This document shows positions 2,791-14,993 of a stretch of 34,054 nt of DNA, piece by piece. Made by a program: the position numbers and the translations under genes. Origin of the DNA: Paludibacteraceae bacterium (GTDB lineage: Bacteria; Bacteroidota; Bacteroidia; Bacteroidales; Paludibacteraceae); NCBI GenBank assembly GCA_017384225.1, contig JAFNUD010000007.1:1-34054 (forward strand), given 5' to 3'. Each line of letters opens with the position of its first letter. Within the stretch, counting starts at the first letter, position 1. The notes beneath the pieces were generated by a model that was not told where the DNA came from, ran no database searches, and was given only the letters and a program-made list of their open reading frames with translations.

Positions 2791-2818
2791 TGGGGTGTGA
2801 GCTGTAGGGTGTAAAGGC
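2791..2818. repeat. 7-base-period repeat upstream of ileS promoter
   Basis: TGGGGTG, TGAGCTG, TAGGGTG and TAAAGGC are contiguous. Read on the minus strand, the left end (GCCTTTACACCCTACA) matches the start of the repeat at 5561-5591 with one difference, so the two are related copies in opposite orientation. The rest of the 2632-3140 gap holds two divergent promoters and AT-rich sequence. I see no believable gene in it. Confidence 0.6.
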
Positions 2819-3064
2819 GGGGCATACTTGAATAGCATTCGAGAAAATGGATATAGATATTTCATGTTATACGTAAGTCTCCTTTCCTCCTGTTTTTTTT
2901 CTCTCACAAAGATCTTTGCAGTGGGGAATTCGCATGTCATTTGCGAAATAGAATATTCGTGGAATATATGTGAATTATGCAAGGAGTATATGTATCGGGT
3001 ACGTGTGGAAGCATACGAGATGCGAAAGAGGAGGGGGTGGTAGAGGAGAATTGGTGAAAAAAAA

Positions 3065-3095
3065 TTGTGTATGTTAGAAAAAAGTAGTACTTTTG
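3065..3095 (+). promoter_or_regulatory. Promoter of the SGNH hydrolase gene
   Basis: -33 TTG at 3065-3067, a 20-base spacer, and -7 TACTTTTG at 3088-3095 followed by CAG. The start codon is 45 bases further on. Confidence 0.8.
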
Positions 3096-3114
3096 CAGTC
3101 CGATTGGAAATTTT

Positions 3115-3140
3115 GAATTAAGAACTAAGATTAAAGAATT
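3115..3140 (+). repeat. 7-base-period repeat abutting the SGNH start codon
   Basis: GAATTAA, GAACTAA, GATTAAA and GAATT run directly into the ATG at 3141. They form the ribosome-binding stretch of this mRNA. No Shine-Dalgarno sequence is present; the A-rich repeat itself occupies that place. Confidence 0.65.
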
Positions 3141-3827
3141 ATGAAACGGATACTCTTTTTTTTGGTCTTTTTGATTATTTGCTCGTTGGGCGTAAATGCA
3201 GAGAAGACATGGGCTCAGCACGAACGTTATGCTGCGCAAAATGATTCGATAAATGCCGATGAAATCGGAGATAATTGCAAGAAAAAGAAACGTCCAACAG
3301 CTGTGCTGATAGGTAACTCTATTACCGACGGTTGGGCAAGCAAACACCCTGAGTTTTTTGCGGAAAATAACTTTGTTGGTCGCGGAATCAGCGGACAAGT
3401 GACAGCGCAAATGCTTAGTCGTTTTCAGGCGGATGTGGTGGCACTGAACCCAAAAATAGTGGTTATTATGGCAGGCACCAATGATATTGCGCAGAATAAT
3501 GGTTATATCTCCCATGAACACATTATGCAAAACCTACAGTCAATGTGCGAACTGGCGAGGTTTCACAAGATTAAACCTGTGCTATGCTCCATACTGCCTG
3601 CGGTATGTTTCTATTGGCGCTCTAACTTGACCCCTGCGAAGGATATTAAGCGACTGAACGAGATGATTGAGGCATACGCTAAAGCCAATAAAATCAAGTA
3701 TATAGACTATTATTCGGTATTGGTGGATGAGCATGGCGGTTTGCCTAAGAAATACGCCAAAGATGGTGTGCATCCTAATCTAGAGGCATACAAGATTATG
3801 GAGGCGATTTTGCTGGAGAGTTTGTAG
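3141..3827 (+). CDS. Secreted SGNH/GDSL-family hydrolase
   Basis: Probable esterase or acylhydrolase acting outside the cytoplasm, 228 residues. Residues 1-20 form a signal peptide (KR, hydrophobic core, VNA), with no proper lipobox. The four SGNH blocks are present: GNSIT (58-62, nucleophile Ser60, with N in place of the usual D), Gly in GRGISGQ (80-86), GTND (112-115), and DGVHPN (208-213) with the catalytic Asp208 and His211. Relatives in Bacteroidales deacetylate carbohydrates or cleave acyl groups from lipids; the substrate cannot be read from this sequence. The gene stands alone between its own promoter and the hairpin element at 3841-3957. Family is clear, function is open. Confidence 0.9.
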   Translation: MKRILFFLVFLIICSLGVNAEKTWAQHERYAAQNDSINADEIGDNCKKKKRPTAVLIGNSITDGWASKHPEFFAENNFVGRGISGQVTAQMLSRFQADVVALNPKIVVIMAGTNDIAQNNGYISHEHIMQNLQSMCELARFHKIKPVLCSILPAVCFYWRSNLTPAKDIKRLNEMIEAYAKANKIKYIDYYSVLVDEHGGLPKKYAKDGVHPNLEAYKIMEAILLESL

Positions 3828-3840
3828 GAGAAATGTTTAT

Positions 3841-12892: not shown

Positions 12893-12905
12893 GCGAAAAC
12901 AGTTG

Positions 12906-12936
12906 CAAAGTTACAACTTTTTTTTTACATACACAA
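12906..12936 (-). promoter_or_regulatory. Promoter of gyrB
   Basis: Minus-strand TTG at 12936-12934, a 20-base spacer including a run of A's, and -7 TAACTTTG at 12913-12906 followed by CAA. Leader length is about 80 bases. Confidence 0.85.
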
Positions 12937-12976
12937 TATCTCTTTTGATATTTATTGAGAAGTGCGCTCAAATCAA

Positions 12977-13022
12977 AGAAAAATGCGTTTTTAAGTCAAA
13001 TTGATATGACTCAAAACGCATT
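12977..13022 (-). terminator. Terminator after rlmI
   Basis: Minus-strand arms AATGCGTTTTGAGTCA (13022-13007) and TGACTTAAAAACGCATT (12998-12982) pair along almost their whole length with an 8-base loop. TTTCTTTG follows. It separates the rlmI unit from the gyrB promoter. Confidence 0.8.
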
Positions 13023-13062
13023 GTGCAAACTCAAAATAGCTTAAATCGAAGATTTTACAAAG

Positions 13063-14274
13063 CTATTCTACTTGCAAAACCAAGCCCTTTAGATATTCAC
13101 CCTCGGGGTGGTAGATATTGATGGGGTGGTCGGCCGGTTGATGCAACTGGTGCAAGATACGCACCTTACGTCCTACTTGTGCTGCGGCAGAGAAGACTGC
13201 CAAACGGAACATATCCTTATCTATCGCCTGCGAACATGAGAATGTAAACAAGATACCACTAGGACGGATAGCCTGTATGCCCTTAGCGTTCAAACGTTGA
13301 TAGCCACGCAGGGCATTCTTAACCGCATCGCGGTGTTTGGCAAAAGCAGGCGGATCCAATACGATGAGATCATACTTGCTTTGGTTCTTGGCTAAGAACT
13401 CAAAAGCCTCCTCTGCAAAAGCCTCGTGCGGTGCGTTTTCGCCAAAATTATGTGCTACATTACTACGCACCAAGTCGATTGCTTTTTGACTCACATCTAC
13501 TGAGTGAACTAATTTTGCGCCACCACGCAACGCATAAACAGAGAATCCGCCCGTGTAGCAGAACATATTAAGCACCTCTTTACCTTGGGCGTAGTGCTCC
13601 AATAGTGAGCGATTATCACGTTGGTCAATGAAGAAGCCCGTCTTCTGTCCGCGGAGCCAGTCAATGCGAAAGTCCAATCCATTCTCTTTAGCCCAGAAAT
13701 CGCTGTTGAAATCGGCTTTTTCTGCACCAATCAAGTAACCTACGCGTTCCCCTTGAATAGGCGCTTTATGAGGTAAAGTATCATCAGACTTATAATACAC
13801 CTTATCCACTTGTGGCACTATCTGCACAATTGCCTCGGCAATCTCCATGCGATGGCAGTGCATACCGATGGAATGGGCCTGAATAACCGCCGTATCAGCA
13901 TAAATATCCACAATTAATCCTGGCAGGAAGTCACCTTCGCCATGAATAAGACGATAGGTGTTGTTGGTGGTAGAGATTAATCCTAATGAGCAACGAACAT
14001 TATAGGCTGCTTGGATACGCTCTGTCCAAAAGTTATGAGGCAGCTCACCAACGCCAAAAGCCAAGATGCGCACAGCAATAGAGCCAATCTGATAATGCCC
14101 AACGCCTAAGATTTTGCCGTTGGAATCAAGCACTTGTACCACTTCTCCTTCTTGTGGCTGTGCGTGCGGATAGTCTGCATCCAACTGAATACTACGAATA
14201 GCACCCGAGAAGACCCAAGGGTGAAAACGGAGAAGAGACTCTTCTTTGTGTGGTTTCAAATATACGGTTGTCAT
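13063..14274 (-). CDS. rlmI: 23S rRNA (cytosine-C5) methyltransferase, RlmI-like
   Basis: 403 residues, the normal length for RlmI/YccW, which makes m5C1962 in 23S rRNA in E. coli. The N-terminus has a PUA-type RNA-binding domain (about 1-75, with HPWVFSGAI and VVQVLDSNG). The SAM-binding motif is NMFCYTGGFS (236-245), with DPPAF (307-311) and SCSQ (346-349) in the catalytic core. The start ATG overlaps the stop of the exonuclease gene (ATGA at 14274-14271), which indicates translational coupling. Third and last gene of the DUF5063-like / exonuclease / rlmI unit. The exact target base in this lineage is inferred. Confidence 0.9.
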   Translation of the reverse strand: MTTVYLKPHKEESLLRFHPWVFSGAIRSIQLDADYPHAQPQEGEVVQVLDSNGKILGVGHYQIGSIAVRILAFGVGELPHNFWTERIQAAYNVRCSLGLISTTNNTYRLIHGEGDFLPGLIVDIYADTAVIQAHSIGMHCHRMEIAEAIVQIVPQVDKVYYKSDDTLPHKAPIQGERVGYLIGAEKADFNSDFWAKENGLDFRIDWLRGQKTGFFIDQRDNRSLLEHYAQGKEVLNMFCYTGGFSVYALRGGAKLVHSVDVSQKAIDLVRSNVAHNFGENAPHEAFAEEAFEFLAKNQSKYDLIVLDPPAFAKHRDAVKNALRGYQRLNAKGIQAIRPSGILFTFSCSQAIDKDMFRLAVFSAAAQVGRKVRILHQLHQPADHPINIYHPEGEYLKGLVLQVE

Positions 14275-14993
14275 TTTAGGTGAGAGGTTAGAGGTGGGGT
14301 GTTTTCAGTACACTTTTTAGCCATGGCTTCTTGCTGACGGCGTATCTGTGCTTCTTTTTCGGCACGTTTGAGTGCATCAATAGCGCGCTTAGAGAGTGGT
14401 TTGACCTGTTGTAATGCCAGATAAATACTTAGTGTAGCCCAAGCATCGGTAGAAGCATAACGTGCTTGTTCGGCGGTTAGATACGAGTTTTCCCAATTGG
14501 TAAGCTGTTGTGCTTTGCTAATCTTTTTACCGAAGATAATAGCAAATATCTTTTGTAAGCCTAATTCCATAATACCATACTTGCATACCATTGCTTGTAA
14601 ATCTATGCAGTTAGCAGGTTTGAAATCACGTCTTCTACGCAAGCCATTGATATCATCTTTGAAGGCTAATCCCACTTTGCATATCTCTGGATCTGCGAAT
14701 ATTTGTGCGATTTCAACGGGCAATCCCACATGTGTTAATCGGAATAGGTAACATCTTTCGAGAGTGGCTATCTGTACTAATGCGGTAGGATAATGCACAC
14801 CACGCTTGAAGGATGGTCGTGCCTCGGTATCCACTCCCAAAATAGTGTGTTGGCGCAAATATGCAACAGCTTCTGCCACCATATCGGGTTTGTCCACTAC
14901 AACGATATCGCCTTCGAAGAAAGTGACAGGTAGCGCTTGAATAGCAGTCTTATCAATGTGTGGCGCAAAGGTATTTGGCAAGAAACTACTCAT
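14271..14993 (-). CDS. DEDDy 3'-5' exonuclease, RNase D-like
   Basis: 240 residues from the ATG at 14993. The frame is open further upstream, to 15110, but that part overlaps the preceding gene and does not look like the family. Exonuclease motifs are VDTEARPSF (Exo I, Asp/Glu), GLAFKDDINGLRR (Exo II) and YASTDAWATLSIY (Exo III, DEDDy form). No HRDC domain follows, so this is the single-domain type rather than full RNase D. It is likely to trim structured RNA 3' ends, given its rRNA methyltransferase partner; this is inference. The last codons are built from 7-base repeats (14274-14301) and encode the tail TPPLTSHLK. Confidence 0.88.
   Translation of the reverse strand: MSSFLPNTFAPHIDKTAIQALPVTFFEGDIVVVDKPDMVAEAVAYLRQHTILGVDTEARPSFKRGVHYPTALVQIATLERCYLFRLTHVGLPVEIAQIFADPEICKVGLAFKDDINGLRRRRDFKPANCIDLQAMVCKYGIMELGLQKIFAIIFGKKISKAQQLTNWENSYLTAEQARYASTDAWATLSIYLALQQVKPLSKRAIDALKRAEKEAQIRRQQEAMAKKCTENTPPLTSHLK
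14274..14301. repeat. 7-base-period repeat at exonuclease 3' end
   Basis: TTTTAGG, TGAGAGG, TTAGAGG and TGGGGTG are contiguous. On the coding strand they specify the last residues of the exonuclease and reach the first base of the rlmI start codon. Confidence 0.7.

Follow-up and report, generated by a model that had tools for sequence, protein, structure and literature searches.

Dispersed short tandem words that differ between species occupy spacers and conserved genes in a genus of Paludibacteraceae

The window analysed here (34,054 nt) is contig C16 of the 2.17 Mb genome of a Paludibacteraceae bacterium (G000; 140 contigs, 88% complete), and it carries short, degenerate tandem arrays, mainly of 7-nt units, that are part of a genus-wide set of dispersed tandem words. 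It encodes isoleucyl-tRNA synthetase (IleRS; 1-2631, minus strand), kdsA, kdsD, gyrB, an rRNA methyltransferase, dprA, a gyrase/topoisomerase A subunit, tgt and a TonB-receptor/SusD pair. Two metagenome-assembled genomes (MAGs; labelled Paludibacteraceae, Bacteroidales) match the window in gyrB at 96% and 95% identity, and in 23 others the identity is 83-87%; several of the close-relative MAGs are labelled as ruminant gut samples. A tRNA was the sole Rfam match in the window, and a megablast search of plasmids returned nothing matching 2700-5700.

The original prediction listed eight period-7 sites in gene spacers of the window, and all eight sequences are present where it placed them. The lag-7 score of each site plus 60 nt on each side was compared with those of 500 dinucleotide shuffles, giving fractions that are uncorrected for the 34 kb scanned in making the prediction. 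Three sites are clear. The clearest in a spacer is the TTTACAC/TCTACAC array at 5563..5591 (plus strand; score 14.5 and 0/500 shuffles at 5564-5591; period 7 at 5566-5584 in Tandem Repeats Finder, TRF), flanked on one side by a terminator-like hairpin (approximately 5524-5553, by eye) and on the other by the beginning of an NMN-transporter-like gene (5598-6344, Pfam PF04973); the sister species G014 has a different sequence in the orthologous spacer. The degenerate ACCTCTA/ACCTCTC array at 14274..14301 (minus strand; score 8.5, 0/500 shuffles) is not in a spacer: it forms the last codons of an exonuclease-like gene (14271-15110), and the rRNA methyltransferase gene (13063-14274) has its overlapping start immediately after it. 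The G014 ortholog has another upstream neighbourhood, and the array was not seen there by eye. The third, TTTAAAGTTTAGAG at 9144..9160 (minus strand; score 8, 1/500 shuffles, 0.002), lies in the spacer before kdsA (8340-9140) and overlaps the stop codon of the gene at 9158-10249; the same spacer holds other repeats in three related loci (L030, L037 and L041).

Three further sites are borderline: a GAATTAA/GAACTAA/GATTAAA array at 3115..3140 (plus strand; score 7.5, fraction 0.028) that runs up to the start codon of a GDSL-lipase gene (3141-3827), two copies of GGTTAAA/GTTTA at 10810..10823 (minus strand; 0.038) between gyrB and a LOG-family gene, and two copies of TTTAGAG at 27412..27427 (minus strand; 0.048) overlapping the stop codon of a SusD-like gene (27424-29280). 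The remaining two are not significant alone, namely a weak two-copy site at 24507..24521 (minus strand; 0.060) before the queuine tRNA-ribosyltransferase gene and a degenerate GCCTTTACACCCTACA-like array at 2791..2818 (minus strand; 0.118) in a long divergent spacer. As predicted, 2791-2818 has GCCTTTACAC-YCTACA in common with 5561-5591 in opposite orientation, and it also has GCCTTTACACYCTACA in common with 5561-5576 (both by eye). When the eight sites were matched to 32 units taken from elsewhere in the sampled genome, with letter-shuffled lists as the control, 2791-2818 alone was supported (0.045, weak; 0.13-0.97 for the other seven). The list omitted the window's two strongest in-gene arrays, both in IleRS: an in-frame CGGGTAT/CGGGAAT heptamer array in loop 1 (1955..1986, minus strand; lag-7 score 13, 0/500 shuffles; also found by TRF; Pfam tRNA-synt_1) and a period-8 array in loop 2 (374..409, minus strand; TRF period 8 score 51, lag-8 score 11).

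The observation is partly confirmed, and it holds better genome-wide than for the eight listed sites. The G000 sample comprised the window and 20 stretches (392 kb; 426 kb in total) drawn from contigs in which pattern matches had been listed. Its 242 spacers contained 28 lag-7 segments with a score of at least 9, against a mean of 1.5 in 40 shuffles (standard deviation 1.3, maximum 5), which bears out the predicted excess over shuffled spacers and the recurrence elsewhere in the genome. Lags 11 (13 segments, 0.9 expected), 9 and 12 (6 each, approximately 1.1 expected) and 8 (5, 1.3 expected) were raised less, and lags 5, 6, 10 and 13 gave 0 to 2 segments. In the whole of G000 the pattern CTTTAAACTNTAAACT (up to 2 mismatches) occurred at 115 places, compared to 14 for the reversed pattern, a control that is itself a period-7 word.

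The genus was defined as 25 loci (L029-L053) by gyrB identity (83-96%), some of which may duplicate genomes that bear G handles here. Over 2.03 Mb of genus sequence, perfect arrays of at least 3 copies numbered 39 for units of 7 nt, 30 for 4 nt, 7 for 11 nt, 6 for 8 nt, 5 for 5 nt and 1 each for 6 and 12 nt; units of 8, 9 and 11 nt, which the prediction did not mention, accompany the heptamers. Lag-7 segments of score 11, counted as spacer/gene with genes called by a simple custom script, were 19/13 in G000, 10/7 in G014, 8/19 in G003, 13/3 in G007, 2/1 in G008, 2/0 in G011, 3/5 in G017 and 31/44 in G006; the G006 stretches came from contigs matching a composite word described below, and those of the other genomes from contigs of a methyltransferase search. 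The arrays are enriched per base in spacers, yet 13/32 in G000 and 44/75 in G006 are in called genes, which amounts to about half of the arrays. In other families the counts were 6/2 in 160 kb of G026, 39/14 in 400 kb of G358 (picked for high counts, one word being frequent there) and zero in 318 kb of G039, G031 and G032. Around gyrB, the 25 close loci gave 34/24 at lag 7 and 14/9 at lag 8, 11 middle-distance loci 9/1 in 164 kb and the 44 most distant 13/1 in 771 kb. A scan of 395 genomes of the class for a single word found it in 64, at tens of places in a few; these are counts only, without a valid control because the unit reversed is a rotation of itself. Across the class, then, the trait is patchy; in this genus it is strong. 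Chance, composition or MAG assembly error is an extremely improbable source of these counts. Two of the eight window sites are not significant alone and nearly all close relatives are MAGs, but neither spacer nor codon shuffles reproduce the excess, MAGs from several different projects agree, and the 318 kb mentioned above is empty.

Each array was then reduced to its 7-mer unit, and units were compared under rotation and strand. Two arrays of the same genome had identical units 8 to 9 times as often as two arrays of different genomes. On the 157 of 182 arrays that remained after clustered and flank-similar ones had been removed, there were 58 within-genome identical-unit pairs, while 2000 label shuffles gave a mean of 12.3 and a maximum of 31. 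Word sharing across unrelated loci of one genome is far beyond chance, in agreement with the earlier guess of a spreading element and with the earlier comparison to cyanobacterial heptamers.

The vocabularies differ by species. In whole-genome counts (each register of an array counted, 3 of 24 mismatches allowed; one representative genome per species), AGTCGAA was found at 174 places in G007 (reversed control 1), 104 in G022 (control 6) and 98 in G015 (control 30), and at none in G000, G003, G011, G013, G014, G017 and G024. AAATCAT was found at 130 places in G006 (control 0), 81 in G022 and 51 in G003, with none in G000 and G014; TGGTGAT at 72 in G003 (control 2) and none in G000; and AAGTGTA at 14 in G000 and 10 in its sister G014. 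Reversed controls were mostly near zero, reaching 30 (AGTCGAA) and 41 (AAGTGTA) in G015. On a tree of a single gene, IleRS, word counts jump between close neighbours (AGTCGAA 0 in G003, 8 in G006 and 98 in G015). A two-unit composite also recurs: AAATCAT-AAATTTG-AAATCAT (up to 1 mismatch), whose AAATTTG unit differs from AAATCAT at three positions, is present in 9/25 genus genomes and at 44 places in G006, and its reversed control is found in none. Thirty loci of the composite were read, corresponding to 26 distinct arrays, and their flanks appear unrelated by eye.

Next, spacers of close species were compared. In the spacer between gyrB and the LOG-family gene, 8 of the 22 aligned species have a one-base overlap of the two genes (TAATG type), and the others have arrays of differing words. 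L033 and L038 are 87.5% identical in DNA, and there a 32-nt AAATCAT array in L033 sits exactly at the TAATG overlap of L038. Another spacer of the same pair has a 9-nt array in L033 and a 7-nt array in L038 (units by eye), and an 8-nt repeat differs by one 8-nt copy. This copy-number difference, with the array gain or replacement between the two, supports in part the proposal that the arrays are born by slippage. In the orthologous spacers that were compared, the G014 sequence likewise departs from that of the window. A separate feature of the gyrB-LOG spacer is a near-identical insert of about 100 nt in L035 (12006) and L040 (10999), which contains GTTTGA repeats and a ACGCGAAGCGT hairpin.

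The prediction had also suggested that the arrays could adjust translation, which a strong excess near start codons would support. An initiation element of this kind, an unstructured leader or a ribosome-recruiting sequence as proposed for the TAACTGA repeats of Beggiatoaceae, would agree with the several arrays that abut start codons, with the roughly twofold enrichment in co-directional spacers (0.79 arrays per kb; divergent 0.35, convergent 0.41) and with the sense orientation of AAATCAT-like sites upstream of starts (29/42 by a loose match). However, the start bias is mild, 52/92 arrays (56.5%) being within 12 nt of a start compared to 43.8% for random placement in the same spacers. Upstream of starts, other words show nearly balanced orientation (12 to 9 for the GTTTAAA family, 28 to 24 for GAATTAT, 1 to 3 for AGTCGAA and 1 to 1 for GGATATT), AAATCAT in G006 gives 12 to 7, most G006 arrays are in called genes, and before the same start related species have no array or a replacement. 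A translational role is accordingly very unlikely. With mixed orientation, only a slight preference for starts and some half of their number inside called genes, the arrays do not resemble ribosome-binding sites. We conclude that they are tolerated rather than recruited; in the reading preferred below they are not dedicated ribosome-binding or regulatory elements.

Arrays inside genes were examined through orthologs. Of 71 such arrays, 36 had a spanning ortholog of at least 45% identity, giving 95 pairs that are not independent (reciprocal pairs are included). Identity in these pairs was 17% in the array columns and 67% in the flanking 10 residues, and the ortholog segment had its own period-7 or period-8 repeat in 20/95 pairs compared to 21/1492 control segments. 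Relatives often have a gap, unrelated sequence or a different repeat at the array position. One loop of a protein that we take to be metallo-hydrolase-like contains CTTTCGA in L033 and L038, AAATRTC in L041 and an 8-mer in L031, the first three being of equal length. The in-gene arrays are scattered along the gene, with 8/100 within 60 nt of a gene end.

IleRS provides the fullest series (22 genus copies; G008 and G025 are left out). Segments with a score of at least 7 at lags 5-12 were found at loop 1 in 9/22 copies and at loop 2 in 15/22, and no such segment was found at either loop in 6 copies from other families. Over the whole gene, the genus copies contained 14 lag-7 segments, compared to at most 2 in 10 synonymous shuffles and to 0 in the 6 genes of other families. 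The loop 1 units mostly differ by species (CGGGTAT in G000, CGCCAAT in G014, AGTCGAA in G007, AATTAAA-like in G002 and G004); G002 and G004 are alike, as are G009 and G018, and the loop is short in G003, G006, G012, G016 and G022. Loop 2 has mostly units of 7, 8, 9 or 11 nt, and 7/22 copies are without an array there. Relative to the solved IleRS 8c8w, the loop 1 array is a 9-residue insertion, and full-length IleRS matches had no internal stop. In form the arrays do not match phase-variable contingency repeats, which are long near-perfect runs whose copy number switches reading frame or promoter spacing: the listed arrays are short and degenerate, and the IleRS matches are without internal stop.

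These data bear on how the words arise. Slippage accounts for unit-length changes and homogenised arrays, as in the GG versus CC of successive IleRS loop 1 units in G000 and G014. Under local slippage only, weakly constrained stretches would become arrays of a heptamer already resident there, and sharing would reflect mutational preference. The 8-nt difference between L033 and L038, the placement of arrays where constraint is low and the concerted change in IleRS loop 1 between G000 and G014 fit this explanation. It also agrees with the presence of mismatch repair genes, since loops of 7 nt are believed to evade that repair. MutS was above the cut-off in 24/25 genus genomes (all but G018, a 54% complete genome) and MutL in 22/25. 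Loss of mismatch repair was rejected as a cause, MutS being found in 23/23 good genomes of 41 searched, all 23 of which also had MutL matches. Furthermore, heptanucleotides are the commonest class of long simple sequence repeats (SSRs) in many bacteria, with slippage as the proposed origin (Mrazek et al. 2007, as cited in PMC4679880 and PMC4692102). By contrast, local slippage does not predict that a word stands at dozens of sites of one species and is missing from its neighbour, nor the recurring two-unit composite. Array-free orthologs also lack a clear trace of the unit (3.5 vs. 3.7 mismatches in 50 pairs from 16 arrays, one array having a clear match). We regard local slippage alone as possible, at well below even chances. 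It leaves the sharing between many sites and the missing local trace unexplained, and copying between loci is the simplest addition.

The best reading, towards which we lean without holding it firmly, combines dispersed words, growth by slippage, copying between loci and survival in operon spacers and protein loops. A word would arise and lengthen by replication slippage in unit-length steps, and would then be copied to other loci of the same genome by ectopic template switching or conversion from existing arrays. Arrays would be homogenised and replaced quickly, leaving each species with its own changing set of words. Under selection they would persist only at places that tolerate a few dozen nucleotides of any sequence, namely in operon spacers and, in frame, in variable protein loops, and any translational effect would be a by-product. 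The period, the word sharing, the in-frame loop sites and the differences between species at one site are observed directly; from them we infer the copying step with its enzymes, the direction of change and the neutrality of the arrays.

Several observations weigh against this reading. No copying event was observed, and since only species representatives were compared, insertion and loss are not separable with certainty. Many sampled arrays have a unit seen once, and sharing is weaker in G000 than in other genomes (9.8% of pairs within G000 have at most 1 mismatch, compared to 5.1% to others). The reversed control is common in some genomes, for example for AAGTGTA in G015 (control 41, pattern 8). 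Some in-gene arrays are unchanged in relatives (one in L033 and L038, and array 5), and the loop 1 sequences TATCGGGAATCGGG in G000 and TATCGCCAATCGCC in G014 may have diverged partly because an inherited array changed in concert. The local-seed test was small (16 arrays), and a trace since erased is possible.

A further alternative is the tandem addition of a fixed word at breaks or nicks, by a dedicated polymerase or from a nucleic-acid template, and interstitial telomeric repeats offer an analogy. Species-specific tandem words at different sites and on both strands, and the large count differences between neighbouring species, would fit. However, several unrelated words and unit lengths occur in one genome, and the reverse-transcriptase domain PF00078 was not found in 20/25 genus genomes, including the array-holding G000, G003, G006, G007 and G014; a reverse transcriptase was rejected as the writer on the same search. 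Such addition is unlikely. We give an equally doubtful standing to the broader idea that a templated process, using a template or a word-directed copying enzyme, rewrites spacers and essential-protein loops with a new vocabulary as species diverge; if true, it would be writing of the kind seen in interstitial telomere repeats by an unknown bacterial machinery.

Among known systems, the Rickettsia palindromic elements and PARCEL are in-frame repeat insertions in unrelated conserved genes. The arrays described here share that placement; they differ in being simple tandem words rather than longer defined elements, and an inverted partner is rare (2/182 at score 11). They also resemble the cyanobacterial short tandemly repeated repetitive sequences (STRR; Calothrix and Nostoc, in part from PMC4692102), which are degenerate tandem heptamers at many loci with several units per genome, mainly in spacers. 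Unlike STRR, the words here are different ones, change between neighbouring species, are accompanied by units of 8, 9 and 11 nt, and are often in frame inside conserved genes. The original prediction knew of no equivalent in Bacteroidales, but there is a precedent. According to MacGregor (2015; PMC4679880), TAACTGA direct repeats occur in Beggiatoaceae, cyanobacteria and five Bacteroidetes, with two sets in Paludibacter propionicigenes and 7-nt indels between strains. Like the present arrays, they are tandem heptamers in spacers, often near starts, and patchily distributed. According to the same paper, the TAACTGA system has one favoured unit with related heptamers rare as repeats, is mostly forward directly before starts in the BOGUAY genome, and has its in-ORF copies mostly at protein ends (Beggiatoaceae); here there are many units per genome, mixed orientation with a mild start bias, and in-gene arrays spread along genes. 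Exact double copies of TAACTGA numbered zero in the 2.03 Mb of genus sequence (the whole of G000 was not searched for it). Long-SSR surveys, as cited in the above sources, concern runs longer than expected by chance, unlike the listed arrays of 18 to 68 nt, which are degenerate and have species-specific words.

The arrays have the marks of dispersed heptanucleotide tandem repeats, with a 7-nt excess over shuffles and neighbouring periods and one unit at many loci of a genome. They form a genuine set of short tandem words, dispersed across genomes of the whole genus, and are of the STRR or heptamer SSR kind. A literature search that covered few subscription journals found no description of the phenomenon in Bacteroidales beyond PMC4679880. 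What is new is that neighbouring species have different vocabularies, that arrays sit in frame within conserved genes, IleRS among them, and that other unit lengths accompany the heptamers. Because the words differ between species, the genus is suited to studying the birth and spread of repeats: its 25 genomes have different, fast-changing vocabularies, conserved flanks show where an array is present or replaced, and conserved genes serve as traps controlled by reading frame. As a caution, protein loop insertions in these bacteria may reflect repeats at the level of DNA and not functional evolution of the protein.

Arrays as hairpin arms were considered and rejected for the genus, where 2/182 had an inverted partner of score at least 11 within 150 nt (reversed control 6; 1/75 in G006). 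This architecture was common only in G358, a member of another family of the order, with 25/53 arrays having an inverted partner (reversed control 0). Its loci L259-L278 contain long hairpins, several of which fill the spacer between co-directional genes (for example L264:8923-9007 and L265:10643-10723); variant units are mirrored between the arms, and lag 22 is raised (31 spacer segments). Some G000 arrays are beside GC-rich hairpins or in long inverted repeats (L025 near 3933 and 4477, L028 near 6465 and 15357), and one such hairpin folds as DNA with a z of -6.4. GC immediately follows the array in 17/24 listed G000 matches of two words, as a raw count in which one array is listed twice.

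Arrays of period 11 (and 22) also occur at L013:18664-18720, L019:5525-5567, L021:4159-4202 and L028:586-631 and in genus loci, 63/68 of them in spacers, and their words are shared within genomes (12.5% of pairs within 2 mismatches, compared to 2.3% between genomes). As this period is approximately one helical turn, they could be phased binding sites, or they could be the same process at another unit length. A period-11 array lies 0.3-1 kb before gyrB in L035 (9685-9726), L047 (9024-9077) and L034 (9340-9375), and approximately 1.9 kb before it in L053 (8089-8131), with partly different units.

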